Shown here piece after piece: positions 232 through 16,504 of a stretch of DNA of 64,000 bases. The position numbers were made by a program, and so were the translations under genes. Below the pieces are notes generated by a model, which made no database searches, had not been told where the DNA came from, and saw only the letters and a program-made list of their open reading frames with translations. Positions within the stretch are counted from its first letter, which is position 1, and each line of letters opens with the position of its first letter. Origin of the DNA: Flavivirga aquimarina (GTDB lineage Bacteria; Bacteroidota; Bacteroidia; Flavobacteriales; Flavobacteriaceae); the NCBI RefSeq assembly GCF_030540835.1, contig NZ_JAUOEK010000120.1, forward strand, positions 124,001 through 188,000, written 5' to 3'.

Positions 232-1302
232 CTATCCAAAAAATATAACCGCCTGAATTATATTGATTAACAGAAAACCGCAAGGAAAGAGGTATTTGCA
301 GTATCCCATTAGCTTCTGGTTACTTATTTTTTTACTTTTAGCTGCTATGGAATGCCCCAGTATTATAATGAGTATACTTATGAAAATACTTAGGTATCCT
401 ATAGTAATCAAGGACTCGATAAAAGTACTGTAGGGAAGATTGGGCAGAATATTGGATGTGTGAAAATTAAATGCCACAACAGTAAGCATAAGGGTAAAAT
501 TAGTTGCTAACTGATCTGATAAATCCGGTATCCAAAAAACGGACCAGGAAATAGAAATAATAAGAAAAAGGGGAAATATGAATTGCCATAAATAATACCT
601 GATTTTTCTTTTAGCATTAATTTCTATATTATATCTGGAAAATTCGACAGGTCTACCATCTGTGCTTAAATGTGAATATTCTTTTTTGCTTACATATTTC
701 CGTTCGTTGTATATTAACCATTCTTCGGGCATCTCTTTATTTATAGAGATTATGGCATCGTTACTTCTCTCAAATACAAGGGATTTATCATCATAAGAAA
801 AAGCCTCTAGCTGAATGGAAAAGCATTGTCTGTCGAATGGAAACTTTTTAAAATCCATAGACGTTGTAAAAACAGCATTAAATCGTTCGTTATAGGTTAC
901 ATTTCCGTCCGGTCTGATAATAAGCTGTTTGTTGACCGTATTTCTTTTTCCAACCACATTAATAAACTCGAAAGCAGGAACCCATATTTCTTTGCCGATT
1001 TTTTCGTCTGCAACCTGGTTTTCGTAAATAATTTTGTTAGAGTTCTTTTTTTTGACAATGTTTCTTTCGTCGAACCAACTCGCAACAAAATAGCCATCAA
1101 TCGTATAGGTTTCATTTAGTGTATTAATACCATATATTTTATTAATTTGAATTTTAGGGGTAATCTTTACAGGTTGTATGCTATCCCCATAATGGGTTTC
1201 TCCATCTTGCTTTTTAGCTGACAAAACCACTCCGTTATAATTCTCATAAAAACAAAAAGAATTACTCAATAATAAGGTTAAATATATGCCTAGGTACATC
1301 AT
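232..1302 (-). CDS. ELIC-like pentameric ligand-gated ion channel
   Basis: A 356-aa member of the Cys-loop receptor superfamily. Residues 1-20 look like a signal peptide. The extracellular ligand-binding domain (about 25-235) carries the family's Trp/Asp/Arg strand (ASWFDER, 74-80) and FPFDRQ (154-159), without the eukaryotic Cys pair, as in bacterial members. Four membrane helices follow: M1 about 236-258, pore-lining M2 about 262-285, M3 292-315 and M4 333-355. The M2-M3 region (LMLTVVAF, then TSNILPNLPYS) resembles from memory the Erwinia/Dickeya channel ELIC, a cation channel opened by primary amines including GABA. The protein should sit in the inner membrane with its binding domain in the periplasm. 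The start lies 2 bases after the stop of the decarboxylase gene, so the two are almost certainly cotranslated. Ligand identity is inference. Confidence 0.93.
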   Translation of the reverse strand: MMYLGIYLTLLLSNSFCFYENYNGVVLSAKKQDGETHYGDSIQPVKITPKIQINKIYGINTLNETYTIDGYFVASWFDERNIVKKKNSNKIIYENQVADEKIGKEIWVPAFEFINVVGKRNTVNKQLIIRPDGNVTYNERFNAVFTTSMDFKKFPFDRQCFSIQLEAFSYDDKSLVFERSNDAIISINKEMPEEWLIYNERKYVSKKEYSHLSTDGRPVEFSRYNIEINAKRKIRYYLWQFIFPLFLIISISWSVFWIPDLSDQLATNFTLMLTVVAFNFHTSNILPNLPYSTFIESLITIGYLSIFISILIIILGHSIAAKSKKISNQKLMGYCKYLFPCGFLLINIIQAVIFFG

Positions 1303-1304
1303 GA

Positions 1305-2594
1305 TTAACTAATTGGTTTACCGTCAATAACAAGGGTTGCATAGCACTCAAAAAGATCATTGACCAATTGAACAAGAAAAAACTCTTTCATATCGTTGCG
1401 TACCACAATTCGCATAACTGTAATATCCATTTTACCTGAAAGCTTGTAATATGGAAGCATCCATTTTTTCTCTCGCAACAATTGTGTAAACTTGTTTATA
1501 TCAACCTGTATCGGTTCTTTAAATTTGAATACAACAACAGGAATTTTACCATCAGAAAGTACTTCGAACACCCCATGCCTTGTTAATAATTGAGTCAAGA
1601 ATTTTGTATTTGCCATGCATTGCTCAATGATTTTCCTATAGCCTCCGAAACCGTAATGAAGAAAATTGAAATATTGTGCAAGGACTAATGAAAATGATCT
1701 TGAAAAGTTTACTGTAAATGAATCTGAAACGCCGCAAAGGTAACTGGACTTAATGTTTAATTCTGAATGGAAATAGCGTTTATCTCTAAACAACAACCAC
1801 CCTAGCCCAGGATAAACCAATCCGAATTTATGCCCGGATAAATTAATGGATCGCACAAGAGAACATTCAAAATCCCACATACCATAATCTGATGCATCCA
1901 AAAAAGGCACAACAAAACCACCTATAGCGGCATCTATGTGTATCCCTACATCCCAGTTATTATCCTTGTTAATTTTTTCCAGCCTTTCATTTAAAATATT
2001 TATGGGGTCGCAGGTGCCTAAAGATGTGCTTCCTAAAATTGCTACAACGCTTATGGTGTTATGGTCAATATTTTTTAGAACATGCTCCAATGGGTATTCG
2101 TTATAAACTTCCAAAGGAACTTCACGGATTTCAACATCTAAATACCTGGAAAACTTATACCAGCACAAATGAGCATTACTACAAAATACGATATTTGGTT
2201 TTCCTTGATTATTCTTTTTTTTCCATTCCCATTTTGCTGCAAGGATTGCCAAAAATATAGACTCTGAAGAGCCTGTAGTAGAGCTGCCAAATACCTGATC
2301 TATATTCGGAGCATGCAAAAAACGGGCTATCGTTTTAACCATATTTTCGTGAATACCTGTCGCTTTGTGGTATTCGTGTTGATTCACCATATTGACTCCC
2401 ATAGATTGATGAATTAGAAAGTCTGCTTCAGGTAACATTTCTATGGTGGTATAGCTTCCTAAATCATGACTTGTTAAACCATCTGCTTCTAATTCCTTAT
2501 AAATTATTTTTAGGGCACCATAGGCCGAAAATCCGTGTTGAAGGAGGTCGTTATCAGGAGTTTTAGAAAATACGTTTTTAAAAATTTCAGACAT
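1305..2594 (-). CDS. Glutamate-decarboxylase-like PLP enzyme
   Basis: 429 aa, group II PLP-dependent decarboxylase fold. Visible motifs are the phosphate-binding GSSTTGSSE (103-111), HIDAA (219-223, Asp221 pairing with the pyridine nitrogen) and SGHKFG (253-258, Lys256 as the Schiff-base lysine). The region after the lysine (YPGLGWLLFRD, later TVNFSR) follows E. coli GadA/GadB closely. The substrate-contact segment is GSYTT where GadB has an ATF-type segment, so glutamate to GABA is plausible but another acidic amino acid is possible. The protein is shorter than GadB (466 aa) and appears cytoplasmic. It is the middle gene of a porin, decarboxylase, channel set: 41 bases after the porin stop and 2 bases before the channel start. 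Confidence 0.88.
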   Translation of the reverse strand: MSEIFKNVFSKTPDNDLLQHGFSAYGALKIIYKELEADGLTSHDLGSYTTIEMLPEADFLIHQSMGVNMVNQHEYHKATGIHENMVKTIARFLHAPNIDQVFGSSTTGSSESIFLAILAAKWEWKKKNNQGKPNIVFCSNAHLCWYKFSRYLDVEIREVPLEVYNEYPLEHVLKNIDHNTISVVAILGSTSLGTCDPINILNERLEKINKDNNWDVGIHIDAAIGGFVVPFLDASDYGMWDFECSLVRSINLSGHKFGLVYPGLGWLLFRDKRYFHSELNIKSSYLCGVSDSFTVNFSRSFSLVLAQYFNFLHYGFGGYRKIIEQCMANTKFLTQLLTRHGVFEVLSDGKIPVVVFKFKEPIQVDINKFTQLLREKKWMLPYYKLSGKMDITVMRIVVRNDMKEFFLVQLVNDLFECYATLVIDGKPIS

Positions 2595-2635
2595 TGCAGG
2601 TTTTTCAATTATGAATTAGATGTGTAGCAGGAGTG

Positions 2636-3439
2636 TTATTTTAATATAAAGTTCATCCCTGCCTGAATATGGTTTGTGTTTTGTTCTATAATTCGTGTTG
2701 TTCTTAAAAAGATGCTTATTGTAAGGGTATTGCGTGTAAATGATGTTGAAACTCCGAGGTTAAAATCACGCCATCCGTTTGTTTCTTTAGTATTATTAAA
2801 CCTATGTGCTAACGACCCTGTTATCGCCATGCTATTTTTTTTCCAGCTATACAATTGTTTTTGTAAAGCAAGGGAGGTATAAAAGCTCCCCGAATCGCTA
2901 ACAAATACAGTAATGTTGGGTTGCAGAAAGGTGGAAGGAAGTGCTATGCCGGTATATACCTCTCCAAAATTTGAATTTCTTAAACCGGCAATAGCAGGTG
3001 CATAATAATAAACCACCCCTAAAGAAGTCGTGACCCGTTTGGAAATAGCATAATTGTAATTAAGGGCAGAAGATATTTCTAAGTCATTTGTATCATAATC
3101 TGCACCAAAACTACTCCAGATATTTATTGAAAAACCACTTTTGCCAAACGCATAATTGGTATTGGACTGGATTGCGGGATAACCAGACACCAAATCCCTC
3201 CAAATATAATTGGTAGTAGCCAATACTTCAAAACCAATATTGTTTTTCGCTACTGTATCGGACAGCTTATCGTTTTTTAGTTTTAATATGATTTTTTCTA
3301 AATCTTCCGTTGTATAAAAAGTATTGAAATACGCTATTAACTGCCGTTTCTTTATTAAATGGTCTATTTTCTGTGCCGTTGCAAGATGACACGACAGATA
3401 AAAAATTACGAAACACATTAAATGAAGTCCTTTTTTCAT
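2636..3439 (-). CDS. Putative outer-membrane porin, TorF/Gcw_chp-like
   Basis: 267 aa. A signal peptide (about 1-22, ending ATAQ) precedes a helical spacer (25-65) and then alternating, aromatic-rich beta strands running to the C-terminus, as in small outer-membrane barrels. The first strand motif TTNYIWRDL resembles the start of the TorF-family putative porins. Barrel closure is suggested by the terminal strand ending in FILK. It is the first gene of the operon with the decarboxylase and the ligand-gated channel, so it could let the decarboxylase substrate or product cross the outer membrane; that role is inference. No clear promoter was found in the 295 bases upstream, which hold nothing else I can identify. 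Confidence 0.7.
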   Translation of the reverse strand: MKKGLHLMCFVIFYLSCHLATAQKIDHLIKKRQLIAYFNTFYTTEDLEKIILKLKNDKLSDTVAKNNIGFEVLATTNYIWRDLVSGYPAIQSNTNYAFGKSGFSINIWSSFGADYDTNDLEISSALNYNYAISKRVTTSLGVVYYYAPAIAGLRNSNFGEVYTGIALPSTFLQPNITVFVSDSGSFYTSLALQKQLYSWKKNSMAITGSLAHRFNNTKETNGWRDFNLGVSTSFTRNTLTISIFLRTTRIIEQNTNHIQAGMNFILK

Positions 3440-3734: not shown

Positions 3735-4277
3735 CTAACGCTTTGTTTGGGTGGCCTTTATTAATTTGTCTGTTTGTGTATTAATTTCTAATCTATTATC
3801 CGTTTCTATAAATAATTCCCCTTTACATCCTTTGGTCATGCCACATACTTTTACTTTGGGGTACTTCGCTTTCCATAAATCGGCAATATGGTCCTTCAAC
3901 GCAGAATAACAAATGGAGAAATGAACCTCTGATAGTTTGGCTGAACCTTTTAACTTTTCTAACAATTCCATACTCTCTTTAACAGGAAGTTTTCCCCGGT
4001 TATCATCCCATAAATTTCCATTTACTTCTCCACCATAAGCATGCATCATTACAATACTATCATCTGCCATAGTTATGGTTTCCATGTTATTGGAGTATAC
4101 CAACGAAGCACTGGTAATAAGCTGTGTACCAAAACGCACTTCCTTTTTATTTGCAAACGATTTTTTAACCATTTCAAATAGTTCCCTGCTATTTGCTACA
4201 CAATCATCTCCTGATCTTCTGGTACTTTTATCGGGATAGGGGATAAATATGACTAATTGTTTTCCTTTATTCTTCAT
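3735..4277 (-). CDS. Small clan CD (caspase/CHAT-like) putative cysteine peptidase
   Basis: 180 aa, no signal peptide. I do not recognise a named family, but the layout is that of clan CD peptidases. A hydrophobic strand ends in His followed by small residues (SIVMMHAYGG, His79), and about 40 residues later another strand ends in Cys (VHFSICYSA, Cys123). An early strand (QLVIFIPY) and a following KVKVCGM strand fit the alternating fold. The spacing and the strand-H and strand-C pattern match CHAT and caspase-like domains, though the domain is compact and the usual AC/SC is IC here. It is the last gene of the DUF2589/hydrolase locus, 121 bases after the patatin gene. Peptidase activity is inference. 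Confidence 0.55.
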   Translation of the reverse strand: MKNKGKQLVIFIPYPDKSTRRSGDDCVANSRELFEMVKKSFANKKEVRFGTQLITSASLVYSNNMETITMADDSIVMMHAYGGEVNGNLWDDNRGKLPVKESMELLEKLKGSAKLSEVHFSICYSALKDHIADLWKAKYPKVKVCGMTKGCKGELFIETDNRLEINTQTDKLIKATQTKR

Positions 4278-4398
4278 TCATTATACTATTTAAATGTTGT
4301 GTGATTTACGTCATTGAAAACTTGCAAACGTGTTGCCTGAAGTTGTTCAAAAGTAGGCTTTACCTTGCTCAAAAAATTTCAAAACCTGACAATTATTT

Positions 4399-5655
4399 TT
4401 AATCCAGATCTTTTAATTTTCCCATCAAATCTCCATATGGTGTACCTGCAAATTCTACGATTATATCACCATTAGAATCAAACCTTCCTAATTCCAAATA
4501 TTTTTCTATAAATTTGTATGCTTCGTTATAAGAATCCCGAAGTTGTTGAGGTGTAGGTTCCCCAAGTAATGTGGTAATTGGATCAATACCTTCAGAGGTA
4601 ACCTTTTCGTTAAGTCCGACCAAGGTCATATTAGGATTAATTTTAAACCCATTTACGCAAGAGGCGTATTCTTCCCCAACGATTAACTCTCTTTTAAATA
4701 GTGATTGAATTGCAAACTTGTTTAGAGTCCCAAAATTGTGAAATACTTCAGAGTCCCACGCATCTTGTACCTTTTTATTACCTAAATGCAGTAGCAAGGT
4801 ATTTTCTTTTCCAAAAATCTCCGGGATATATGGTAAATTCTGAAAGATCCCACCATCAATGCAATTAATTCCCAGTGCTTTTAATCTTACCGGTGGAAGC
4901 GCCCATGGAAACGATGCCGATGCTGCCATGGCTTTAATCATAGGCACTTTTTTATGCGCTTCATAAAAGGTAGACCCTTTCATACTGGTAAAAGTTATGG
5001 GTCTCATTTCTTTTTCGTTAACAACAGTTGCCGTAGTTGTAAAATGCCCTAATCCTAATTTAATCATCTCGCTTTCACCGAGCATGTCCAACAAACCACT
5101 CCATTGCTCCATGGTCATGCTTTCTACTTCTTCTAATTGCTCAAAGAGCTTTTTCGTTTTTGGCTTACCTACTAATTCTTCCGCTTCTTTACGCCTTTTA
5201 AAAACCATTTCTTTATAAGCTGATAAAAGCTCTATTTGTATTTTCACAATGGGGTGATCGTTATCTTGTGCCTCTCCCATATGTAAAGGATCTCCTCCCA
5301 GTAAACGCCCATAAAGAATGGCATTAATTGCCAGATCGATCATATTTGATGGTAAATATTTAGGTTTTTTTGATTGTTTCACAATATTTCTTAAACTAAT
5401 GGGGGTAATCTTTTCTAACTCTTTATCTATTTTTATTGACGACAACCGTACTCCCGAAAAAATTGACAATGTTTCTGTTGGAACTCCAATTGCTTTATTA
5501 TAGGCAAGTATACTTCCGGCACTGGTGCCTCCCCAATGCTTCACATGACTTATTCTTTTTGATTTTTCTAACCTTTGGATCGCTCCTAAATGTGAAACTC
5601 CTTTAGATCCTCCTCCGCTTAATATGACGTTTCTAGTGTTATTTACTAATTGCAT
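4399..5655 (-). CDS. Patatin-like phospholipase
   Basis: 418 aa. Patatin signatures are complete: oxyanion loop GGGSKG (14-19), nucleophile elbow GTSAG (43-47, Ser45) and catalytic DGG (267-269, Asp267), giving a Ser-Asp dyad lipid acyl hydrolase. No signal peptide or membrane segment is seen, so it is probably cytosolic or delivered by an unseen route. A charged helical insert (about 130-200, Glu/Lys-rich) separates the dyad halves. Patatins are common effectors in bacterial conflict and phage-defence systems, as well as housekeeping lipases. Here the gene sits between the caspase-like gene and the DUF2589 group on the same strand, which favours a specialised role (inference). Confidence 0.9.
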   Translation of the reverse strand: MQLVNNTRNVILSGGGSKGVSHLGAIQRLEKSKRISHVKHWGGTSAGSILAYNKAIGVPTETLSIFSGVRLSSIKIDKELEKITPISLRNIVKQSKKPKYLPSNMIDLAINAILYGRLLGGDPLHMGEAQDNDHPIVKIQIELLSAYKEMVFKRRKEAEELVGKPKTKKLFEQLEEVESMTMEQWSGLLDMLGESEMIKLGLGHFTTTATVVNEKEMRPITFTSMKGSTFYEAHKKVPMIKAMAASASFPWALPPVRLKALGINCIDGGIFQNLPYIPEIFGKENTLLLHLGNKKVQDAWDSEVFHNFGTLNKFAIQSLFKRELIVGEEYASCVNGFKINPNMTLVGLNEKVTSEGIDPITTLLGEPTPQQLRDSYNEAYKFIEKYLELGRFDSNGDIIVEFAGTPYGDLMGKLKDLD

Positions 5656-5763
5656 GATAATTATTTTTTAAATTTTAATTTGTATATATTAATTTTATAG
5701 TTTTTACTAACCTTTATTTAGCTGCCTCTTCTTTGTTGACTCGAACTTATTTTAATAAACAAA

Positions 5764-6306
5764 TTAAGGTGTCATTCTGGCAATAATAAGGTCCAGCATT
5801 TTTTGCAGGCCTTCGGGTTTATCCTGCATTTTTGCTTCTACACGAAAGTTATATTTTGCACCCTGGTTCTCTTTTCGTGTGTTTTCTCTCGATTCTGTAA
5901 GTTTACCCAGCATTTCTACTTTTTGAAGCGAAAAAAGTTTTAACCTTTTATTCTTTTCTTCGTCTGTAAAATCGGTTTTATCAAAATTCTCTATAGTGGT
6001 ACTTACCTGTAATTGAAAATCGACAGCAACTTTATCAATCATTAAAGAAGGGATTGGCACCATTGAAAGTATGGGGGCTTTTATTGTTTCGGTTTTATAA
6101 GACATAGCTCCTTCTTCCAGTTTATCTGCAACTGGAACATCAAAATTGATGGTTTTAAGGCTTCCCTCGTCGTTAAAGCCTACAAGTTCAATAAACTCGT
6201 GAGTACTTAAAGCCAGGGCGACCTGCGACTCCATAACGGCTCTAAATGGTGCGCCTATAAGTTCTCTTATGGGCAGTTGATTCATTTGGTTTTCTATATT
6301 CTCCAT
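5764..6306 (-). CDS. DUF2589-type protein (paralog C)
   Basis: 180 aa. It shares three blocks with its neighbours. The first is an N-terminal amphipathic helix LPIRELIGAPFRA with a following SQVALA. The second is a central strand with PIPSLMID-VAVDF. The third is a C-terminal helix after PEGLQKMLD. These match the DUF2589 family as I know it, which has no assigned function. A Lys/Glu-rich insert (about 110-145) replaces the Ser/Thr-rich stretch of paralog D. It has no signal peptide. Only 2 bases separate it from paralog B upstream, and 108 bases from the patatin gene downstream. Several homologs in tandem suggest a hetero-oligomer. It is most like the 8456-9022 paralog. Confidence 0.75.
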   Translation of the reverse strand: MENIENQMNQLPIRELIGAPFRAVMESQVALALSTHEFIELVGFNDEGSLKTINFDVPVADKLEEGAMSYKTETIKAPILSMVPIPSLMIDKVAVDFQLQVSTTIENFDKTDFTDEEKNKRLKLFSLQKVEMLGKLTESRENTRKENQGAKYNFRVEAKMQDKPEGLQKMLDLIIARMTP

Positions 6307-6308
6307 GG

Positions 6309-6779
6309 CTAATTATCTTTAGGGATTACGTTTGTTGTGAAATTTTCTATAATACGCTGTATACCTTCTGGGGCATCTCCTTTTTTAAATTTCATTTTTA
6401 AATCGATCATGTTAGGGTCTTTACCGGGCTTATTGGTTCCGTTAGAGAAGGAAATGTCGAGACTTGCTCGTTTTACCTGGTGGCCGGCTTTGGTTACTTC
6501 CTGCTTTGTTTCTACACCATCTACCCTCAGGCTCATATCTACCTCTAATTCTTCCAACTCTAACCCTGTTGGTGTTACGAGCGTTATTAAAGGCACATCG
6601 ATTGTAACGCCTTCCGATATATTCATGGCCATGGTTATGGGGTTATTATCATCATCAAAATAGCGATCTAACAAACCGATATAGAACTTTTCTACAACAT
6701 CCTGGGCTGCATTTACACTGTATTGAACGCCTTTGGCAATATCTGTTAATGTTTGCCCTGTATTTTTTTTAGTACTCAT
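6309..6779 (-). CDS. DUF2589-related protein (paralog B, divergent)
   Basis: 156 aa, the most divergent and shortest of the four paralogs. The central block reads PLITLVTPTGLELEELEVDM in place of the PIPSLLID-VTVDF pattern, and the C-terminal block is DAPEGIQRIIENF with a terminal VIPKDN. The N-terminal helix (AKGVQYSVNAAQDVVEKF) has lost the PIRELI motif. It is tightly packed, 2 bases before paralog C and 31 bases after paralog A, so transcription with both is nearly certain. There is no membrane segment. I infer homology from the block order and spacing; a profile comparison would settle it. Function unknown. Confidence 0.6.
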   Translation of the reverse strand: MSTKKNTGQTLTDIAKGVQYSVNAAQDVVEKFYIGLLDRYFDDDNNPITMAMNISEGVTIDVPLITLVTPTGLELEELEVDMSLRVDGVETKQEVTKAGHQVKRASLDISFSNGTNKPGKDPNMIDLKMKFKKGDAPEGIQRIIENFTTNVIPKDN

Positions 6780-6810
6780 TTTAATTATAGTTTGTGATTA
6801 TAACTAGTTA

Positions 6811-7380
6811 TTAGGATTGTATTTTTGGTATAATGCTGGATTCTGTAAGGATATCCAATATTCTGTTTAAGGATTCGGGACGCTCTTGTTTCTTTGCCAT
6901 AACCTTAAATTTATATCGGGCACTGGTGTCAGATCTATTCTCATCTGAAGTTCGATTTGCCAAACTGGTTTCTATAGCCACCCGGTCTTTTTCTACTTCT
7001 ATTTTTCTTCCTTGAGCGTCTTTAATGTATTGGGTCTCCGAATAATTACTAGAAGCATGAATTCTTAAATCGAAAGACACTTCTACTGTTTCTATAGCCA
7101 GCGATGGCGGATCCATAAGGGTTAAAAATGGCAGGTTTATCGCCATTTTACTGGTTTTCCCTGTTGGTTTTCCTTCAGCATCTAATTGGTTGGATTCATA
7201 GGAAAATGGTATCATGCGCAACTCGCCTTTTTTATCCAGAGCCACATTATCAAAAAAGTCAACCATTTGATCGTTTAATAATGATTGTGCTTTAACTGTG
7301 GCGATAATAGGTGCTGCTACCATTTTTTCTATAGCCATCGGCTTCATAACGCCTTGCATAGGTTTATCCTGGTTTTTCAT
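6811..7380 (-). CDS. DUF2589-type protein (paralog A)
   Basis: 189 aa. The N-terminal helix MAIEKMVAAPIIATVKAQ aligns with the PIRELI-APF-A--SQ helix of paralogs C and D. The central block is DPPSLAIETVEVSFDLRI, and the C-terminal block RPESLNRILDIL ends in a Pro-containing tail. Between them lies a polar, Asn/Ser/Asp-rich insert (about 130-160, including NRTSDENRSD). No signal peptide. It lies 22 bases after the 172-aa gene and 31 bases before paralog B. The shared architecture across four genes suggests duplication followed by specialisation of subunits in one complex (inference). Function unknown. Confidence 0.7.
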   Translation of the reverse strand: MKNQDKPMQGVMKPMAIEKMVAAPIIATVKAQSLLNDQMVDFFDNVALDKKGELRMIPFSYESNQLDAEGKPTGKTSKMAINLPFLTLMDPPSLAIETVEVSFDLRIHASSNYSETQYIKDAQGRKIEVEKDRVAIETSLANRTSDENRSDTSARYKFKVMAKKQERPESLNRILDILTESSIIPKIQS

Positions 7381-7402
7381 AATATTTTAATTGTTTATAA
7401 GC

Positions 7403-7921
7403 TTAATTTTTAGTGCGACTCTTTTCTAATCGCAGTATCTTTTTTATCCAGTTCCATATTTTTTGCCATGTAGACATTTTTTTTTCCAGGAAACAGCTGG
7501 TGTATGCTTTGGTATAATCCAATACGTCTTCTATAGAGTCTTTTTTATAATGCTCAAAAAAGACGGAAACAGTATGCATGTTTAATTGCTTGCACCGAAT
7601 TGAAAATTCGATGGTTTTATTTAGTGCTAGCTCTTTAAGCGCTTCTTTGGAAACCTGTTTTAGTACATATTTTTTAATAGGGACAGTAAGATAAAGATGC
7701 TCTAATGCATATGTGTTTGATAAAAAATGTGTCATCATTTGTTTTTTTATCTCTTCACTTTTTGCTGCCTGTTTGTTCTTCCCTCTATAGCAACTAATCC
7801 GTTCTTTTTTTAATGTCATGTCTACCGTTTCCAATTGTTTGAAAATGGATTGGTTTTCATAAACTAATCCAAGAAGTTCTTCAATAGTAGTAACATGTTT
7901 CTTGGATGGCCAAAATCGCAT
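7403..7921 (-). CDS. Unknown 172-aa protein with Trp-rich amphipathic tail
   Basis: I do not recognise this family. It is a mostly helical, Lys/Glu-rich protein without a signal peptide. The last 25 residues (starting MSTWQKIWNWIKKIL, then basic) form a striking amphipathic helix with three Trp residues and many Lys/Arg, as in membrane-surface anchors or membrane-active peptides. Three Cys residues are scattered (at about 44, 109 and 143). It is wedged between the GyrI-like gene (2 bases upstream) and DUF2589 paralog A (22 bases downstream), so it probably belongs to the same complex or pathway. A membrane-recruitment role is inference only. Confidence 0.6.
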   Translation of the reverse strand: MRFWPSKKHVTTIEELLGLVYENQSIFKQLETVDMTLKKERISCYRGKNKQAAKSEEIKKQMMTHFLSNTYALEHLYLTVPIKKYVLKQVSKEALKELALNKTIEFSIRCKQLNMHTVSVFFEHYKKDSIEDVLDYTKAYTSCFLEKKMSTWQKIWNWIKKILRLEKSRTKN

Positions 7922-7923
7922 AA

Positions 7924-8394
7924 CTATAAAATTGAAGGATTGATACCTATTAATAAATCTACTTTCAATGTTTCATCTTTTCTGTCCGAATCTTCATTTA
8001 TATTACTATAAAAGTTGTACAAGGGCGTAATAGGCTGAAGTTTATTATCTCTAACATAAGTATATATCATATTATGCGCATCTGTTAAATTGGTAGAACT
8101 TCCTTCATAACTTAGATGGAGTGCATTCATTAAATGAAATATTGGCTTTATGGTATAATCTTTAAGATCGTCTGTGTTATGCTCAATCGGAATCATAATT
8201 TCCATATCCATCAAACCGCTATTCCTATCCATATGATACACTGCGGTAATAACACCTCCTATTTGATTTAATTTTTTTTGGTCAATAAGCTTGGCCATTA
8301 AAGCAAATTCTTCATCGATCTCATTTTCTTGCACTTTTTTTCTACAGGATAACAGATTCTGTAGTTTTATCTCTTTGTTTTTTTCAATTTGCAT
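7924..8394 (-). CDS. GyrI-like small-molecule-binding domain protein
   Basis: 156 aa. The second half follows the SHV/GyrI-like effector-binding pattern: a GGVITAVYH strand, a MDMEIMIPIE strand, a helix-strand repeat around HLSYEGSSTNLTDAHNMIYTYVRDN, then PLYNFYSN and a final VDLLIGIN strand. Such domains bind small hydrophobic or cationic ligands and often accompany AraC/MerR regulators. Here the domain stands alone, with only a short helical lead-in (1-40) and no DNA-binding domain. It is 2 bases ahead of the 172-aa gene and 61 bases after DUF2589 paralog D. A ligand-sensing role for the locus is inference. Confidence 0.55.
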   Translation of the reverse strand: MQIEKNKEIKLQNLLSCRKKVQENEIDEEFALMAKLIDQKKLNQIGGVITAVYHMDRNSGLMDMEIMIPIEHNTDDLKDYTIKPIFHLMNALHLSYEGSSTNLTDAHNMIYTYVRDNKLQPITPLYNFYSNINEDSDRKDETLKVDLLIGINPSIL

Positions 8395-8455
8395 ACTATT
8401 CTATTTTTAAAAACCGAGGAGTATATCTTTATATAACTCCTCAGTTTAGAGTTAA

Positions 8456-9022
8456 TTAGACCGAAGCTGTTTGTGCCCCACCTTCAATTGGGGTAATACA
8501 ACTAGCTATAATATCCATAAGTTTACTCATACCTTCTGCAGGAGGTTGTTGAGTAGCTGTAACATTTATTGTATACGTAGCCGTTTGATCTGTACTACGT
8601 GTACGTTCTTCACTACTTTTTACACTACCTTTAAAAGCCACACTTGCCCCCCACCAAGAACCGGAAACAGCTAAGGAAGCCTCTCTGGAACTTGTATTGG
8701 TTTGCGTATCTGAAGTCGTAACGGACATGGTAAAATCTACCGTTACGTTATCAATTAGCAACGAAGGGATTGGTACCAACCCTAAGATAGGAGCCCTTAC
8801 CGTAATGGGCATTACTGTTACTTCGCCTGTAGTACCGTCTTTAACGGTCTGGTCTAGTTTAAAATCTAATATTCTTGTAGATCCGTCATTCTCAAAGGCC
8901 AACATGTCTACATAGTTTAAAAACTCATCAGCTAATAATACTTGCGACTGGCAGGCAGCCTTAAAAGGATTAGCTATCAATTCCCTAATGGGTAATGATG
9001 AAAAAGAACTTGCTATGCTCAT
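8456..9022 (-). CDS. DUF2589-type protein (paralog D, leading gene)
   Basis: 188 aa and the clearest DUF2589 member of the four. The N-terminal helix is LPIRELIANPFKAACQSQ, the central block VPIPSLLIDNVTVDFTM, then a Ser/Thr-rich region with a WWGASVAFKG turn (about 125-135), and the C-terminal block AEGMSKLMDIIA ending at ITPIEGG. No signal peptide and no transmembrane helix. It is the first gene after a 330-base gap, so it probably heads a transcript covering the remaining DUF2589 genes, the patatin and the caspase-like gene. The family has no known function. Its similarity to paralog C extends over the whole chain apart from the insert. Confidence 0.8.
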   Translation of the reverse strand: MSIASSFSSLPIRELIANPFKAACQSQVLLADEFLNYVDMLAFENDGSTRILDFKLDQTVKDGTTGEVTVMPITVRAPILGLVPIPSLLIDNVTVDFTMSVTTSDTQTNTSSREASLAVSGSWWGASVAFKGSVKSSEERTRSTDQTATYTINVTATQQPPAEGMSKLMDIIASCITPIEGGAQTASV

Positions 9023-9352
9023 AATTTTATTTTTTTATTTAATTATTAAAAAGACACCTCTTACTGTCTTACAGAAGATCAAACAATTAAAATATTTAGT
9101 TTTAAGTATGTTATGTGTCAGGTTTCGATGGTTGTTTAATATTTTTTTTACGGCTTTTCCTCCTTTCTTTTATGTTAAACGAACTCAGTTTTAATCCTAT
9201 TTATACTTGTAGGCTGCTTGTGAAATACTTTTAATTAGAATTAAATTTATAGTTGAAGTACTTTAACCTTATACTAAAATGAAGTCGTGATTATGTTTAC
9301 CAGAAAGAAGTTGGTGTAAAATTGAATCGTATACGCATAAGGTCAGGATGTT
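9023..9352. other. Intergenic region upstream of the DUF2589 gene group
   Basis: 330 bases with no convincing gene. The open frames seen here are short and lack family features. The segment is AT-rich, with long T runs near 9030-9050 and 9135-9150. It must hold the promoter for the minus-strand gene at 8456-9022, but I could not find a clean reverse-complement TANNTTTG box, so none is marked. Confidence 0.5.
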
Positions 9353-11215
9353 TTATTTGTTTATTATAATTTCGTCGTATACTATAATTGAGCCTCCAAT
9401 AGGACCGTCGTTGGTTACTGTTACTGAAGCCCCGCCTTCGTTTGTAACTTCCAGTTGTTCTGAAATACCGTTCCAAAACAGATCTGAAACCTTAATTTTT
9501 TCGGAGTTAACGGTTACATATTGAACGTCTAGTTCTGTAACACTGGAACGCTCTATCTTAGCTTTTTTACCATATGGAATAAGTGTACTTTCAACATCTT
9601 GCTGCATGCTAAGGCTTGTCATTCTCATTAATCCCGTATGTGCATTCCCCAACCCAGTTTTTTCGTTTAAGCATACGTTTCTGTACCCAAGCTTATCTTC
9701 AATAAAATTACGATCGTTGAAGTGTAACTTACCTTCTTCCCAGTGTCTCATGCTTCCTAAGCCATCGCAATTAAATACCCAACCTCCTTTTTTTGCCACA
9801 GCACTTTTATTGTAGATTTCCGAGCCGCAAGATGTAATAACGTGTATATGCACACCTTTTATAATGTCCTTGAATAATTGCTGTTCTTCTTCACTCAATA
9901 TTTTATCGCTTATGCTTTTTATAGTCGAACTTTTCATTGCCAGAATTAACTTTTTCTTAATTTGGTTAATGTTGTCGATTCCGGAATCCAGAGCAAGTGT
10001 GAAGTCTCCTATTTTAAAAATACCATTGGAATTCACGTCGAGGTGTATCGGGTTTGTAGTTTTACCGCTCCAGCCATCCAGTAAGGGCGATCCGTATTTT
10101 TTGTTCTTTTTAATACGTGCTATTTTAGCTTCATTAAGAGCCCCATCCAGACCAATAAGTTGCCATGGATCAATGTACTCATCATCAACCTCATCAGGTG
10201 CTTCCGAAACTAAATCGGACAGGACATATTTCTCGTCTTTTTTCTTATAGCCTTCTACCAATTCTTTGTCAGGTGCTTCGGCAGTATCTTCGGTACTGCT
10301 TGCTATGTTATCATAGTAAGGTTTCATTATTATTTCTGTACCTTCCAGGGCTCCCTCTGGAGTAGCATGTCCGCCCTTAATAACCAGGCTGGTATAAAAA
10401 ATATCCGCTTCACCTCCAGGGTCTAATGCCTTTTCCCATTCGTATGGATACTGTGCTTCCAGTTCTTCTGCCTGTTCTTCTGTTTTTATTTTTTTAAGTA
10501 ATGTATCTACCTCCTTATTGATTTTTTTTGCAATCGTACTAACTACTTTTAATGCCGAGTTGTTTTCATACCCAGTAATTGTAGGGTCTTCAATAAGGTT
10601 ATATGCCACTTCCGAGGCCAGTGCATCAATGTTATCAATCTCTTTTTTTATTTTATCTTCTGCCTCAAAAGCTTCTTTTAGTTTTGTTGTAAGTATTTCC
10701 AAGTTAATGGCATCAACCACAGTAAGGTTTTTAAGGTTAACCGGTTTTTTAAAGGTTGCTTCCTTACTGTTTTTAGGTTTAAAAAAGGGTATTTTAATAC
10801 GGTTAACAGCTATTTCTTTTTTCTTGCATGGCAATGTGTACACTAAATTGGCTCCTATTATTAATATCCAGTTTTTCCATTCGTCACCTTTTACCAGGTC
10901 TTGAAGTTCATGTATTATACCTGTTTTACCTTCGGGACTTCCAAAAAAAGTGTCTTGTAAATATCCTTTTCGTTTCCCTTTAAAATAAAAATCGGGAACC
11001 GTAAATAACTTTAAAGCATCTTTTTCGATATCGCTTCTGTTTTTGGCTTTGTTTAATGCTTCTTTTAACAAAGCAATTCTTGCTTTGTAATCTTTTTCTT
11101 CACCTTGCGACCGAGTTAATATTTCTGTATCAAGGCCCAAAAATGTTTTATTTCCATTTTCTTCTTTAAGACCGGTATGGATACCGTATCCTATAAATTG
11201 TATTTGATTTGACAT
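9353..11215 (-). CDS. Large nitrilase-superfamily-like protein, probably inactive
   Basis: 620 aa, no signal peptide. The N-terminal part (KLFTVPDFYFKG, then WILIIGANLVY) resembles the first strands of carbon-nitrogen hydrolases, where PE carries the catalytic Glu; here it is PD. A long charged middle region (about 180-370, Glu/Lys-rich, probably helical) follows. The part around 400-500 again looks nitrilase-like (FKIGDFTLALDSGID, then HIHVITSCGSEI and GGWVFNCDG), but the position expected for the catalytic Cys appears to be Gly. The C-terminal 90 residues look like a beta domain (TVNSEKI, VTVTNDGP). I read it as a degenerate enzyme fused to extra domains. Homology is a pattern judgement. 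It lies between the lipase-like gene (145 bases upstream) and the DUF2589 group. Confidence 0.45.
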   Translation of the reverse strand: MSNQIQFIGYGIHTGLKEENGNKTFLGLDTEILTRSQGEEKDYKARIALLKEALNKAKNRSDIEKDALKLFTVPDFYFKGKRKGYLQDTFFGSPEGKTGIIHELQDLVKGDEWKNWILIIGANLVYTLPCKKKEIAVNRIKIPFFKPKNSKEATFKKPVNLKNLTVVDAINLEILTTKLKEAFEAEDKIKKEIDNIDALASEVAYNLIEDPTITGYENNSALKVVSTIAKKINKEVDTLLKKIKTEEQAEELEAQYPYEWEKALDPGGEADIFYTSLVIKGGHATPEGALEGTEIIMKPYYDNIASSTEDTAEAPDKELVEGYKKKDEKYVLSDLVSEAPDEVDDEYIDPWQLIGLDGALNEAKIARIKKNKKYGSPLLDGWSGKTTNPIHLDVNSNGIFKIGDFTLALDSGIDNINQIKKKLILAMKSSTIKSISDKILSEEEQQLFKDIIKGVHIHVITSCGSEIYNKSAVAKKGGWVFNCDGLGSMRHWEEGKLHFNDRNFIEDKLGYRNVCLNEKTGLGNAHTGLMRMTSLSMQQDVESTLIPYGKKAKIERSSVTELDVQYVTVNSEKIKVSDLFWNGISEQLEVTNEGGASVTVTNDGPIGGSIIVYDEIIINK

Positions 11216-11360
11216 AATTTAAAATATATAGTAATTTAATTGTGGGGGTTTAGATGTAACCGGCAGTTGGCCTTTTTTAAATTTAATGAGGGAAAATTCT
11301 AAAAACTGCACGAACTGCCAGCAATGATAAGTACTGTCTGTCCTATAACCACCTAAAATT

Positions 11361-12491
11361 TTATTCGCTGATGGACTTGTGATGCCAGTTTATAAATTCG
11401 CCTACTGGGTTTAATCCACTTTCATATTCATATTCTTTCCCTTTGATCTCTGAGAATTTTTTCCATTTACTACCTTTACTAACAGAGCGTTCATCTCCCG
11501 ACTTTTCTATAAGTGTATACACCTCTCTTTGCATAGCTATATACCTGTCATTATCGGTTACTAATTGTTCGTAGCGTGTTAAAAGATCATCTTTAGAGAG
11601 ATTAAGTGTATTTTTTAAAGATGTTCCCCATTCGGTAAGGCATTTTTCTGCGATATCTCTAACAATTTCACCGGAAGCTTTTAAATCATGATCTCCGCTA
11701 ACCCCGTTAGAAGCAGCATTCCCTACTACCGTGGCATGTCTCCCTGGCATTGGAATTATAATAGGCTTATTTGTTTGTTGAAAATCGGGAATAACACAAG
11801 CAAATCCTTTAGACCTTTCATCCCTAGCGTAAATTGCTACATAATTTTCTACATTTTTGGGTATGGTAATTCGATGTTTTTGAAATTGTCCGGTACCGGG
11901 AACAGGGTCTATTGCAACTATATTTACTGGAATATCTTTTAATTTGGAATCCTTCGCCATTGCATTTGCGAGCATATGACAGGTGACACCTCCCCGACTC
12001 CAGCCAATTATATTAACCTTCTCCGGAAGTTCTCCTTTTCGCATAATTCCCACTTTCTTAGCCTGTAATTCTTGCGGGGTTATTTTCCTGTCTGGGTATT
12101 CATATGTTCTCCAAATAAAACCACTCACTGAAGCATCATCAATTGGGACTCCTTCTTTTTTTAATTGGTCGTATTCCTTTTTGGTCAACTTTTTACGTTT
12201 CCATGAGAACTCTCCTTTAATCATGGCCATGGCGTGTGCCACATTTTCTTCCCAACCGCTTCCAAAAGCTTTTCCTTTCCAATCGTAATAGTTACCTGGC
12301 TCTGTCCATTTTTGATCTTCTTGTAGATTCCCGCTTCCTGGTCCGTCGATTACGACCCAATCAACAAATTCACTACCTCCATTATTGGTTGCCAAAGTAG
12401 AAATTAATTCCCCCGAATGATAGTTTTCGTTGTAAGTTGCGTCCCAGCTATTCGATCCGGTACCGCAAAAATAAATTGTAAATACTGACAT
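11361..12491 (-). CDS. DUF2235/Tle1-like alpha/beta-hydrolase (putative lipase)
   Basis: 376 aa. The N-terminal strand FCGTGSN corresponds to the DGTGNN start of DUF2235 hydrolases, followed by a GPGSG loop and an AFGSGWEENV helix start. The nucleophile elbow is IIGWSRGG (Ser in GxSxG), the acid is in VAIDPVPGTG and the base in PGRHATVVG, giving a complete Ser-Asp-His set. DUF2235 includes the Tle1 phospholipases injected by type VI secretion; no secretion gene, PAAR or VgrG is seen nearby, and there is no signal peptide. The C-terminal 100 residues are helical and of unknown role. It is the second lipid-hydrolase candidate in the locus besides the patatin. Confidence 0.65.
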   Translation of the reverse strand: MSVFTIYFCGTGSNSWDATYNENYHSGELISTLATNNGGSEFVDWVVIDGPGSGNLQEDQKWTEPGNYYDWKGKAFGSGWEENVAHAMAMIKGEFSWKRKKLTKKEYDQLKKEGVPIDDASVSGFIWRTYEYPDRKITPQELQAKKVGIMRKGELPEKVNIIGWSRGGVTCHMLANAMAKDSKLKDIPVNIVAIDPVPGTGQFQKHRITIPKNVENYVAIYARDERSKGFACVIPDFQQTNKPIIIPMPGRHATVVGNAASNGVSGDHDLKASGEIVRDIAEKCLTEWGTSLKNTLNLSKDDLLTRYEQLVTDNDRYIAMQREVYTLIEKSGDERSVSKGSKWKKFSEIKGKEYEYESGLNPVGEFINWHHKSISE

Positions 12492-12572
12492 GTTTCTTAT
12501 TGTTTTAATGTTAATGTTATTTCTTTTTTTGTTTTAGTTTATTAACTGATTTATTTAATTTTTTAGTTATTC

Positions 12573-13097
12573 TTATAAATTCACCTCCATTTCTAAAAAT
12601 TGCTCTCCAATAAATTTGGCATGGTACTCTGTTATATTTACCAGGGTGTTTTGCAGGGTAAACCCATTTTTTTCGAGGACTCGTCTGGAAGCTATATTGC
12701 GTTTTAAAACCCCTGTTCTCAAAGATTTTATTTTCAATTCGTTCTTTGCAAAAAGCATAAGCTTTTTTAGCGCTTTAGTGGCTATACCCCTGTTCCAAAA
12801 CTCGACAGCTACCCAGTAATATAATTTGGCCTCACCCAATGATTTATCTATATCGTATAATGCGCATACGCCTGCAAATCGATATTTGAACTGTATGGCA
12901 AACGAAAATCTTGTACCGTACTGCCTACATCTTATTTCATGTTCTACATAGTTTTGTGCATCTCTATGTGTGTAAGGGAGGGAAATCGGATACGTATGTG
13001 AGATTTTTTCATGATTTAAATACTTATAGATCAGATTTGTATGGCACGGTTCTAAAGGAATCAGCAATTGGTCATTTACTTCTTTTATACTGTACAC
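12573..13097 (-). CDS. GNAT N-acetyltransferase (RimJ/RimL type)
   Basis: 174 aa with the layout of ribosomal-protein-type acetyltransferases: an N-terminal LLIPLEPCH strand, a FAIQFKYRFAGVCAL strand pair, the acetyl-CoA motif region YYWVAVEFWNRGIATKALKK (VaxxfWnrGiAteA pattern), and the C-terminal R-NIASRRVLEKNGF motif. The protein is cytosolic and transfers acetyl from acetyl-CoA to an amine; the substrate cannot be read from sequence. It is on the same strand as the lipase-like gene (81 bases before it) and after the L,D-transpeptidase-like gene (85 bases). It may be a passenger or a modifier within the accessory locus. Confidence 0.88.
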   Translation of the reverse strand: MYSIKEVNDQLLIPLEPCHTNLIYKYLNHEKISHTYPISLPYTHRDAQNYVEHEIRCRQYGTRFSFAIQFKYRFAGVCALYDIDKSLGEAKLYYWVAVEFWNRGIATKALKKLMLFAKNELKIKSLRTGVLKRNIASRRVLEKNGFTLQNTLVNITEYHAKFIGEQFLEMEVNL

Positions 13098-13182
13098 TTG
13101 GTCACTTTTTAATCTTGTTTTTTCAGTTTTTGAAAATTATTTTATGCTTTAATTATTGCTATTAAGCTATATCCCCTTGGGC

Positions 13183-13752
13183 TTAAAAATCTGATTCTTC
13201 CAACAGGGTATAAGTAAAACTCTTCTGCTCAGATTTTTTACATACATCCATAAAGAGATTAAAATCTGCTACTTTTTTAAACACCTGACAGCCTGCCGAC
13301 CATTTTTCTACTATTGATGATTCTGTTTTAGGATTACTACTATGGATATTGATCCCATAAATGCCTTCATAAGTTTTTCCATTTGTATCTATAATATTGT
13401 CTTTGTTATTATCTCTCCAGACTTTGAGTGGTTTTTGTTGTACAATGGCCTCATATTTCTTCCGGTGTAGCCCAAGGGTATGTGAGTCTATATATTGTCC
13501 AGGAACCAATATTGCCGTACCATCAACAGAAAGTGGGTTTTCTAGCCAATAAGTTCCCGGGTCTGTAGTGATCTGGAATTCATTAGCTATCATTTTTCCT
13601 GTATTTTCCGGGTAAATAATATATAGCCAATCATCAAATACATTTGCTTTGGTTTGGCTACTCCTTACCCCTATAATGTTTAATCTGGTATCAAAAAATT
13701 GATAGCTCTTCTTGTCCAGAGCTTCTTGTATTTTTGCTATTGTAAATTTCAT
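13183..13752 (-). CDS. L,D-transpeptidase-like protein without signal peptide
   Basis: 189 aa. The C-terminal half has a His followed about 18 residues later by a Ser-x-Gly-Cys: GINIHSS, then WSAGCQVF. This is the arrangement of YkuD-type L,D-transpeptidases (HG then SHGC) and of related wall-lytic proteins. The N-terminal half contains strands and a loop GTYWLENPL. There is no signal peptide or membrane anchor, which is odd for an enzyme that would act on peptidoglycan; phage-type or delivered wall enzymes can look like this. It is the first gene of the minus-strand accessory run. The fold assignment rests on the motif only. Confidence 0.5.
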   Translation of the reverse strand: MKFTIAKIQEALDKKSYQFFDTRLNIIGVRSSQTKANVFDDWLYIIYPENTGKMIANEFQITTDPGTYWLENPLSVDGTAILVPGQYIDSHTLGLHRKKYEAIVQQKPLKVWRDNNKDNIIDTNGKTYEGIYGINIHSSNPKTESSIVEKWSAGCQVFKKVADFNLFMDVCKKSEQKSFTYTLLEESDF

Positions 13753-14711: not shown

Positions 14712-15698
14712 ATGTTATTTTATATATACGGTATGCTACAAACGAGTCTTATTTTTTTGATATGCTTTTGTATTAACATTTCTGAGGCACAAAGAGAAAA
14801 TCATCCTAAAACTCTGAAAGAAGAAATTTTAACTACCTGCCCTATTTGCACTCTTAATGAGCATGAATTCAAACAAATAGGTTCTAATGATTTTCATAAT
14901 GCCCATGCATACTTTTATATTAACGATATTGATACATCTTTTGATCTTGTTTCTAAATTAATAGAACGACAGAAATATAAGAAACTACAATTCAATCTTA
15001 TCTTATATGCCCTGAAAGGGAAAATTTTAAGAGAAAAAAAACTATACGGTGCTTCCTTAAAAAACTTAAACCTAGCTATTGCCGCAGGAGAGTTATGCAA
15101 TAGTAGATATGTACCAACTTTACATACCAGCATAGCCGAGATTTATATCATTCAGGAATCTTATCAAAAAGCGGTTAAAATTCTTGAAGATTGGAAGTCT
15201 AATGCCCCTGTTGAAAGTATAAATGCCAGTACCAATTTTCATAACCTAGGTCTTTGTTATATACTTCTAAAAGAATATGATAAGGCTGAAGAAAATTTAT
15301 TAATGGCCTATCAATTAAATAATAAAGCCAAAGATACTTTAGGACTTGCAGAATCCTTTCTCGATATTGCAAATCTCTATTACACCCAATATAAAGATGA
15401 CCTGGCATTCCCCTATTTTGTTAAGGGATTGGCATTTGCAAAACGGGCTAACGATCTTGATGTATTATCGAATGCGCACTTTAATCTTTCTGTAGTGCAT
15501 GAAAATAAAAAAGAATTCGAAAAGGCACTTGAACATCGTAAAGCATACGAAAAAATACAAGATAGTATCTGGAATCGCGATAAAATATTTCAGCTCGCAC
15601 AAAATGATAAAGGAATAGCTATTGCAGTAAAAGAAGAAATACTTAAAGCAGAGATTTTAAAAAAGCAACTGTACAGCATGTTAACTGGTTTTTTTTGA
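14712..15698 (+). CDS. TPR sensor half of a histidine kinase (frameshifted)
   Basis: 328 aa. An N-terminal signal peptide (about 8-27, ending ISEAQ; Met8 is an alternative start) precedes several tetratricopeptide-like helical pairs (about 55-300, for example NLGLCYILLKEYDKAEENL). The frame ends at TGFF followed by TGA at 15696-15698, exactly where the membrane helix should begin. That helix and the kinase domain follow in the -1 frame. The usual Bacteroidota architecture is signal peptide, TPR, membrane helix, HisKA, HATPase in one chain, so this is the periplasmic half of a split gene. Adding one base to the T8 run at 15689-15696 gives a continuous 597-aa kinase. Confidence 0.8.
   Translation: MLFYIYGMLQTSLIFLICFCINISEAQRENHPKTLKEEILTTCPICTLNEHEFKQIGSNDFHNAHAYFYINDIDTSFDLVSKLIERQKYKKLQFNLILYALKGKILREKKLYGASLKNLNLAIAAGELCNSRYVPTLHTSIAEIYIIQESYQKAVKILEDWKSNAPVESINASTNFHNLGLCYILLKEYDKAEENLLMAYQLNNKAKDTLGLAESFLDIANLYYTQYKDDLAFPYFVKGLAFAKRANDLDVLSNAHFNLSVVHENKKEFEKALEHRKAYEKIQDSIWNRDKIFQLAQNDKGIAIAVKEEILKAEILKKQLYSMLTGFF
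15689..15696 (+). other. T8 homopolymer at kinase frameshift
   Basis: Eight consecutive T bases, followed by GATTTTG. The upstream frame reads GGT TTT TTT TGA and stops. A -1 shift, or one extra T, gives GGT TTT TTT TTG ATT and continues into the membrane helix LILIISGGYF. This could be a slippery site, a one-base deletion in a hypermutable tract, or a homopolymer miscall. Confidence 0.75.
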
Positions 15699-16504
15699 TT
15701 TTGATTATTAGTGGCGGATATTTTATACATAAAGTCATTAAACAGAAAAAAGTAATTACACAATTAAACGCTACTAAAGACAAATTGTTCTCTGTACTTA
15801 CCCACGATTTAAAAACCCCCATGCAGTTTATTCAAAACAAGTTATTTACTATTATCAATGAAAGTGACAAGGCCGCATTCGATCAGAAAGTATGTAAGCA
15901 GCTGGTCATGGATAGTTATCAGCTCTCCAAAAAAACAGCATTGCTCATGGATAACACATTGCATTGGGTATTAAAAAGTAAAGACCAACTCCTTTTTAAC
16001 CGACAAAAATTAACATTGATATCTGTAGTTAATCAGGTGGTGCATAATTACACTCCAATGTTAAAAGAAAAAGAAATTCAATTAATTTATAATGTCGATC
16101 CATTGGTAAAAGTGTATGCCGATCTTAATTCCTTAAAAATCATTATCAGAAATATTTTGGATAATGCCATTAAGTTTTCTTTTCAACAAGGAACTATTAT
16201 CCTAAATGGAGTTACAAAGACTAACGAATACCTGCTGTGCATCAAAGATCAAGGTATGGGGTTTAAAAAAAAACAAACTTCTGCTAAAAGTGTTTTTATT
16301 TTAACCTCTACACCAGATACCGACGGTAAAACTGGTACAGGACTAGGATTACAACTGTGTAGAGAATTGACAAAAAAAAACAAAGGGATTCTAACTATTA
16401 AAAGTGATCTAAAAAAAGGCACCGAGGTGGTTCTCACCTTGCCCCTCTATAAAAATCAAGAAACAGATGAAAAAAATACAAATTCTGGTTTTAGAAGACA
16501 ATAA
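15695..16504 (+). CDS. Histidine kinase catalytic half (frameshifted from TPR part)
   Basis: 269 aa as an independent frame beginning at a TTG. It opens with a membrane helix (about 1-16), then a HisKA domain with FSVLTHDLKTP (phosphoacceptor His37), and a HATPase domain with N box NILDNAIKFS (154-163), G1 DQGMGF (186-191) and G2 GTGLGL (215-220). All kinase motifs are intact, so activity is possible if the two halves are joined. The last 38 bases overlap the start of the response-regulator gene in another frame, implying translational coupling and a cognate pair. Free expression from the TTG would give a membrane-tethered kinase lacking the sensor. Confidence 0.82.
   Translation: MILIISGGYFIHKVIKQKKVITQLNATKDKLFSVLTHDLKTPMQFIQNKLFTIINESDKAAFDQKVCKQLVMDSYQLSKKTALLMDNTLHWVLKSKDQLLFNRQKLTLISVVNQVVHNYTPMLKEKEIQLIYNVDPLVKVYADLNSLKIIIRNILDNAIKFSFQQGTIILNGVTKTNEYLLCIKDQGMGFKKKQTSAKSVFILTSTPDTDGKTGTGLGLQLCRELTKKNKGILTIKSDLKKGTEVVLTLPLYKNQETDEKNTNSGFRRQ

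Follow-up and report, generated by a model that had tools for sequence, protein, structure and literature searches.

The locus

This analysis concerns a cluster of genes around an ELIC-type pentameric ligand-gated ion channel (pLGIC) gene at the start of a 64,000-nucleotide stretch of Flavivirga aquimarina DNA (G000:C83:124001-188000), hereafter the window; positions are those of the window unless prefixed with the name of another stretch (L002:, L005:, etc.). Three minus-strand genes, each an open reading frame from ATG to stop, lie head to tail in the order porin, decarboxylase, and channel: a TorF-like outer membrane porin of 267 residues (2636-3439), a group II pyridoxal phosphate (PLP) decarboxylase of 429 residues (1305-2594), and the channel of 356 residues (232-1302). 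Gaps of 41 and 2 bases separate them, and the coordinates, reading frames, and gaps given for these three same-strand genes in an initial annotation of the DNA were all reproduced. That gene set stands, but it missed the most constant downstream partners of the channel, which lie mostly beyond the window edge. The first is a minus-strand gene for a PDC/Cache-like membrane protein of 464 residues, which begins 129 bases after the channel gene; its 5' end occupies positions 1-102, and it continues outside the window to G000:C83:122708 (L002:8708-10102). After a further 15 bases comes an MFS protein gene on the same strand, also outside the window (L002:7562-8692). Promoter and terminator scans gave numbers close to chance (23 versus a mean of 29.7 and 6 versus 4.2, respectively), hence we do not claim ends for the operon.

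The channel matches the Pfam family PF02931 (Neur_chan_LBD) with 70.1 bits, over the cut-off of 26. Among solved structures, it is closest to an ELIC chain (E 2.7e-85, residues 42-355), and GLIC chains appear only from about 1e-31, in agreement with the resemblance to ELIC seen in the initial annotation. The decarboxylase scores 395.1 bits with the glutamate decarboxylase (GAD) model TIGR01788, over the curated equivalog cut-off of 380.4, and the corresponding enzyme of a second flavobacterium, G010, scores 404.0. Among 80 genomes scanned, these two flavobacteria are the only ones with a TIGR01788 match over the cut-off. The aligned PLP lysine is K256, the residue that had been singled out before within the GAD motifs. 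The porin reaches 41.6 bits with TIGR02001 (TorF family), under the cut-off of 47.15, and has no Pfam match, so that its assignment to the TorF family is probable.

The gene order recurs around ELIC-type channels in two phyla

ELIC-type channel genes were found at eight loci: two in flavobacteria (the window and L005 of G010), one in a member of the Pseudomonadales (L006), and five in Enterobacteriaceae-like genomes (L032 to L036). The searches covered named genome contigs (2 loci) and overlapping genome samples, whose yields are not summed: 2 of 99 relatives, 1 of 395 genomes in the phylum (the window's own), 5 of 392 genomes in the family taken as Enterobacteriaceae-like from rpoB, and, among 369 genomes in the class of the Pseudomonadales locus, 1 ELIC-type channel and 6 other pLGICs. 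The match in G100 coincides in its coordinates with that in G010, and the two were counted as one. No channel relative was found in 394 genomes from the order of G239, a sample with no known matching genome as a positive check. A tblastn search of plasmids with the channel at E 1e-20 gave no match, and the 221 stretches of viral contigs that fit a pattern included no relative. The window channel is 42-44% identical to the six gammaproteobacterial channels in alignment A2; in a separate comparison over 307 residues, it is 47% identical to that of L033.

At all eight loci, the channel gene is directly followed by a PDC-like gene and then by an MFS gene (in L006, at a contig end, the MFS reading frame is short, with 183 residues), and a PLP decarboxylase gene lies upstream of the channel gene, directly adjacent in 7 of the 8. 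At the five Enterobacteriaceae-like loci, the decarboxylase stop and the channel start are 1 base apart, and the channel and PDC-like frames, as well as the PDC-like and MFS frames, overlap by 4 bases, figures that depend on ATG starts of our choice. As a control, we used six non-ELIC pLGIC loci (E 4e-31 to 6e-37; 22-28% identity to three ELIC-type queries). None contained relatives of the decarboxylases, the PDC-like protein, the MFS protein, or DUF2589, a family present near the window channel (E 1e-3; stretches of 5.3 to 15.5 kb); in L077 and L078 the channel lies within 0.5 kb of the downstream contig end, so that PDC-like and MFS genes would be visible in 4 of the 6 controls and an upstream decarboxylase in all 6.

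The decarboxylase-channel pairing, which the initial annotation had proposed to check by synteny, thus recurs at 8 loci in three lineages and two phyla, and the arrangement is a real, conserved gene unit. The small number of loci and lineages is all that speaks for chance neighbors, an explanation that has very little probability and that we rejected given the same order in two phyla, the absence from all six controls, and the touching or overlapping frames at five loci. The porin has a different distribution. A homologue with 58.8% identity lies beside the GAD gene in G010, and no relative was found at E 1e-5 in the stretches examined of the six gammaproteobacterial loci. The porin is therefore not core to the cassette, as had been assumed, but a companion of the two flavobacteria.

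Over 230 residues, the PDC-like protein of the window is 51% identical to that of L033; across lineages, its C-terminal half is poorly conserved. Its Pfam matches to MCP-like_PDC_1 and dCache_1 are both under the cut-off (22.4 bits versus 27 and 18.2 versus 45, respectively), and weak matches to each of these families occur in 6 of the 8 members. Transmembrane peaks were found at residues 21-39 and 213-231, and this member alone has a further peak (346-364). An AlphaFold model of the L005 homologue, built from two sequences, had a mean predicted local distance difference test (pLDDT) score of 52, with values mostly of 60-78 and dips to 46 in the region between the helices. When this model was searched with Foldseek, ranks 1-9 were the sensory domain of the chemoreceptor Tlp3 (E from 4.2e-6, query TM-scores of 0.22-0.24), and lower ranks included PctC with γ-aminobutyric acid (GABA) (1.3e-3) and CqsR with ethanolamine (2.5e-3); the structural matches are chemoreceptor ligand domains. 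A sequence-profile search of the PDB with the family gave no match at E 0.1. The PDC-like protein is a probable periplasmic sensor of small molecules. The MFS protein of the window is 42% identical to that of L033 over 370 residues.

One locus very probably corresponds to the operon of ELIC or of a very close relative

Aligned over its full length of 322 residues, the L033 channel shows 5 differences from a crystallised ELIC chain, hence this locus is very probably the operon of ELIC itself or of a very close relative. In the excerpt of PMC3119659 (Zimmermann and Dutzler 2011) that we draw on throughout, a decarboxylase annotated as GAD lies beside the ELIC gene of Erwinia chrysanthemi (Dickeya), directly upstream of the channel as in the window (Fig. 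6A), and GABA is proposed as a candidate ligand. Both the ELIC-decarboxylase operon and the GABA idea were thus already in print, and the initial annotation erred in stating that it knew of no described bacterial example. L033 shares with the window the PDC-like and MFS genes next to the channel but differs in that its decarboxylase resembles histidine decarboxylase (HisDC) and is not a TIGR01788 enzyme, and no porin was found there.

The excerpt of PMC549065 also describes prokaryotic pLGICs that are fused to Cache and other sensor domains or share predicted operons with them, the partners being of periplasmic binding protein or Cache type; the example given is an operon of a Rhodopseudomonas pLGIC with a stand-alone Cache gene. 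In the excerpted text of that paper, no Cache operon is named for Erwinia and the word decarboxylase is absent. We found no description of the decarboxylase-channel-PDC-MFS set among the matches listed in the open-licence PMC literature, and Fig. 6A of PMC3119659 may already draw further genes. For ELIC, the system has therefore been partly described since 2011. Three points were not found in the literature searched: the occurrence of the unit in more than one phylum together with two constant partners, the change of decarboxylase subfamily, and the true GAD in the flavobacterial branch.

The principal face of the agonist pocket is kept

The residues that form the principal face of the ELIC agonist site (E77, I79, E131, F133, Y175, and F188; 175 and 188 are numbered 174 and 187 in PMC3119659) are identical in the window channel at all six positions. 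ELIC variants with alanine at any of these positions did not respond to cysteamine, which activates the wild-type channel with a half-maximal effective concentration (EC50) of 0.365 mM (PMC3119659, excerpt). On the complementary face, Y38, V40, and N103 are kept (3 of 5 positions), and F19 and R91 are each replaced by Gln. According to the same excerpt, the F19A mutation raised the cysteamine EC50 of ELIC above 10 mM and R91A lowered it about fourfold. The amine pocket thus appears to be kept with an altered complementary side, and given these two replacements and the effect of F19A, the agonist of the window channel probably differs from cysteamine, the best known for ELIC. An Asp occupies the place of ELIC Glu229, a residue named in the excerpt of PMC3119659, and a cation flux is therefore expected.

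The window decarboxylase is predicted to be a GAD without the acid-activity residues

The window decarboxylase aligns with E. coli GadB with 35% identity over 402 residues and is, like GadB, a TIGR01788-type enzyme. It keeps the catalytic positions H275, K276, D243, T212, and R422 of GadB (for positions other than 86, 276, and 465, the catalytic role is presumed). It differs from GadB by Asn at Asp86, His at Gln163, Ile at Ser246, and Tyr at Phe63, and it ends before His465, thus lacking the tail. The solved GADs 3hbx, 5gp4, and 2dgk keep Asp, Gln, and Ser at GadB positions 86, 163, and 246. In all eight cassette decarboxylases, whichever their subfamily, the residues placed opposite GadB Asp86 and Gln163 are Asn and His, respectively (alignment A4, in which the placement of the HisDC-like enzymes is uncertain).

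The acid-only activity of E. coli GadB has been linked to Asp86 and the His465 tail, and a D86N-H465A double variant retained activity at pH 7-8 and used neither aspartate nor glutamine (PMC12961736, excerpt). The same excerpt reports that the D104N variant of a Bacteroides GAD takes other substrates better. As the window enzyme resembles the double variant, GABA synthesis at neutral pH is plausible by analogy, and a role of the cassette in the acid response, which had been suggested for it, is unlikely. No GadC was recognised among the neighboring proteins in general scans, which included no GadC-specific search.

These results bear on a role in ion or pH homeostasis, in which the decarboxylase would consume a proton, the MFS protein would swap amino acid for amine, and the amine-gated channel would provide a return path for cations as feedback. 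A decarboxylase plus a transporter is the layout of known decarboxylation systems, as with gadB beside gadC in E. coli, and the cation flux expected from the Asp at the Glu229 place would suit such a circuit. Where E. coli has gadC, the decarboxylase gene of the window is followed by the channel gene and, two genes on and beyond the window edge, by the MFS gene. However, a GAD without Asp86 and the His465 tail is not expected to show acid-gated activity, a recognisable GadC is lacking among the scanned neighbors, and the PDC-like protein has no place in the scheme, so we consider homeostasis a rather unlikely function.

Two decarboxylase subfamilies occupy the same slot

The enzyme upstream of the channel is a true GAD in the flavobacteria and HisDC-like in the gammaproteobacteria. 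NCBIfam scans covered three of the six gammaproteobacterial enzymes (L006, L033, and L036). With the GAD model (cut-off 380.4), the L033 and L006 enzymes scored 25.8 and 36.5 bits, respectively, and no match was listed for that of L036; with the HisDC model (cut-off 305), the L033, L036, and L006 enzymes scored 196.5, 201.8, and 245.4 bits, and such scores below the cut-off do not tell the substrate. The enzymes of L032, L034, and L035 are about 40% identical to that of L006, and the GAD model gives scores of up to 21-27 bits in their genomes. The window decarboxylase and that of L033 share 22% identity over 204 residues. The position is thus filled by two subfamilies, which argues for conservation of the slot rather than of the enzyme's ancestry and for the amine-making step as the feature that is kept.

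This exchange weighs against purely environmental sensing, whereby the channel and the PDC-like protein would detect amines of plants, algae, or neighbors and the decarboxylase would serve amine turnover or use an unrelated substrate, since the slot retains a decarboxylase through the change of subfamily. Plant-associated putrescine and GABA have been named for ELIC (PMC3119659), and chemoreceptor roles have been proposed for prokaryotic pLGICs (PMC549065, excerpt), both of which favor detection of external amines; on balance, we regard it as unlikely.

In the flavobacteria, a true GAD accompanies a channel with Gln19/Gln91, and in the ELIC-bearing genomes a HisDC-like enzyme accompanies one with Phe19/Arg91. 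At the Pseudomonadales locus L006, which fits neither set, the enzyme is HisDC-like and the channel has His at positions 19 and 91. From the first two pairings, we tentatively suggest that a swap of the decarboxylase would re-tune a phylum-crossing "chemical synapse," in which each version would make and release its own amine and read it by a matched channel and a PDC-type receptor. The ligand of ELIC would then be the product of its HisDC-like neighbor, not GABA.

Neighboring genes and distribution in the genus

Upstream of the cassette lies an island (3735-13752, and in L024) with four DUF2589 genes, a patatin-like gene, and genes for proteins of 180, 172, 620, 376, and 189 residues without a Pfam family. 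The DUF2589 genes are all on the minus strand, at 5764-6306, 6309-6779, 6811-7380, and 8456-9022, with PF11655 scores of 105.7, 62.1, 87.5, and 107.2 bits, respectively (the last match at G000:C83:132504-132992). Transcription on the minus strand would run from the DUF2589 genes through the patatin-like gene and the 180-residue gene to the porin, decarboxylase, and channel genes. Relatives of most island genes, the patatin-like gene excepted, lie at the same place in G010, and a 588-residue relative of the 620-residue island protein is encoded downstream of the MFS gene (L002:2665-4431).

DUF2589 occurs at the cassette in 4 of the 8 cassette genomes versus 1 of 72 other scanned genomes, where there is one match of 41 residues (Fisher p 2e-4, not corrected for kinship among genomes). 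In those four genomes, every DUF2589 match lies at the cassette or within about 6 kb of it, and the four of the window genome are all in the window. The family was not found in 4 of the 5 Enterobacteriaceae-like cassette genomes. A predicted DUF2589 model had a mean pLDDT of 53.2 and a best fold match with E 1.2, and we claim no fold.

The DUF2589 enrichment, together with weak PADLOC phospholipase-effector matches of the patatin-like protein (4399-5655; best 41.4 bits), would fit a conflict island in which these and other effector-like genes serve defence or attack, the channel being an ion-leak effector and the amine its trigger. We find this improbable, given the absence of DUF2589 from most of the Enterobacteriaceae-like cassette genomes, the failure to find the patatin-like gene at other loci, and a PADLOC scan of 10 island proteins in which none but the patatin-like protein gave more than a single marginal match.

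Of 12 genomes in the genus, 2 carry the channel, the PDC-like protein, an above-cut-off GAD, and DUF2589, and none of these was found in the remaining 10, a pattern that suggests that the set was gained or lost in one piece. In the first 12 kb of the window the GC content is 0.34-0.36, versus 0.295-0.342 beyond, a weak sign.

Other genes were noted around the cassettes. Beyond the island and oriented away from it, a TPR protein, a histidine-kinase-type ATPase domain, and a LytTR response regulator are encoded on the plus strand (14712-17207), and the same trio was seen by eye at the same place in G010 (L024:13494-15995). In L033, the ELIC-type operon has downstream of it a PatA/PatG-type subtilase gene (L033:3539-5503; 466.3 bits, cut-off 421.05), in whose vicinity are a GH19 chitinase-like gene and a gene for a regulator that combines AraC-type and sigma-54-activator domains. 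Genes divergent from the Pseudomonadales cassette encode an IS110-family transposase (L026:920-1903) and, at L026:2994-6817, an FHA protein and a Ser/Thr kinase that carries TPR repeats.

Discussion

The best explanation of these results, to which we assign a probability of roughly 0.55, is that the genes form a laterally acquired signaling cassette of the ELIC kind that makes and senses an amine. A cytoplasmic PLP decarboxylase would convert an amino acid into a small primary amine, here most likely glutamate into GABA at near-neutral pH, and transport across the inner membrane, of the amine or of its precursor, would fall to the MFS protein; in the flavobacteria, the porin could let it cross the outer membrane. 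Two proteins would read the amine in the periplasm: the ELIC-type channel, which would respond with a cation conductance, and the PDC-like protein, which may pass a signal inside. In the loop of amine synthesis, export, and sensing first proposed for this locus, the coupling of decarboxylase and channel thus holds, as it recurs with the six principal-face residues kept; the novelty, the porin as a core component, and the acid response do not.

Several points weigh against a signaling cassette. Amine export is a proposal, and the MFS protein is far below the cut-off of its nearest NCBIfam model. GABA activates ELIC with low potency (PMC3119659), and the window channel carries Gln at the F19 and R91 positions. 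At GadB positions F63, D86, Q163, and S246, the window enzyme deviates from the three solved GADs, which makes its glutamate specificity uncertain. The PDC homology is below Pfam cut-offs, with a model of mean pLDDT 52 and fold matches of low TM-score. In G010, three genes that are absent there in the window part the GAD gene from the channel gene (two of type IX secretion type, namely a type IX-signal lectin and PorP/SprF, and one that is OmpA-like; L005:1708-7955). Finally, the eight loci represent three lineages only, and the downstream side is cut in 2 of the 6 control loci.

ELIC and GLIC are standard models for human neurotransmitter receptors. As of 2016, a biological role was known for no unicellular pLGIC (PMC4795631, excerpt). 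The present comparison bears on the 2011 proposal of GABA as the ELIC ligand, since the curated model does not class the decarboxylase beside the near-identical channel of L033 as a GAD, whereas it does so for that of the window. A four-gene cassette with natural enzyme swaps would supply matched pairs of enzyme and channel, with which the question of the native ligands of these channels becomes testable.

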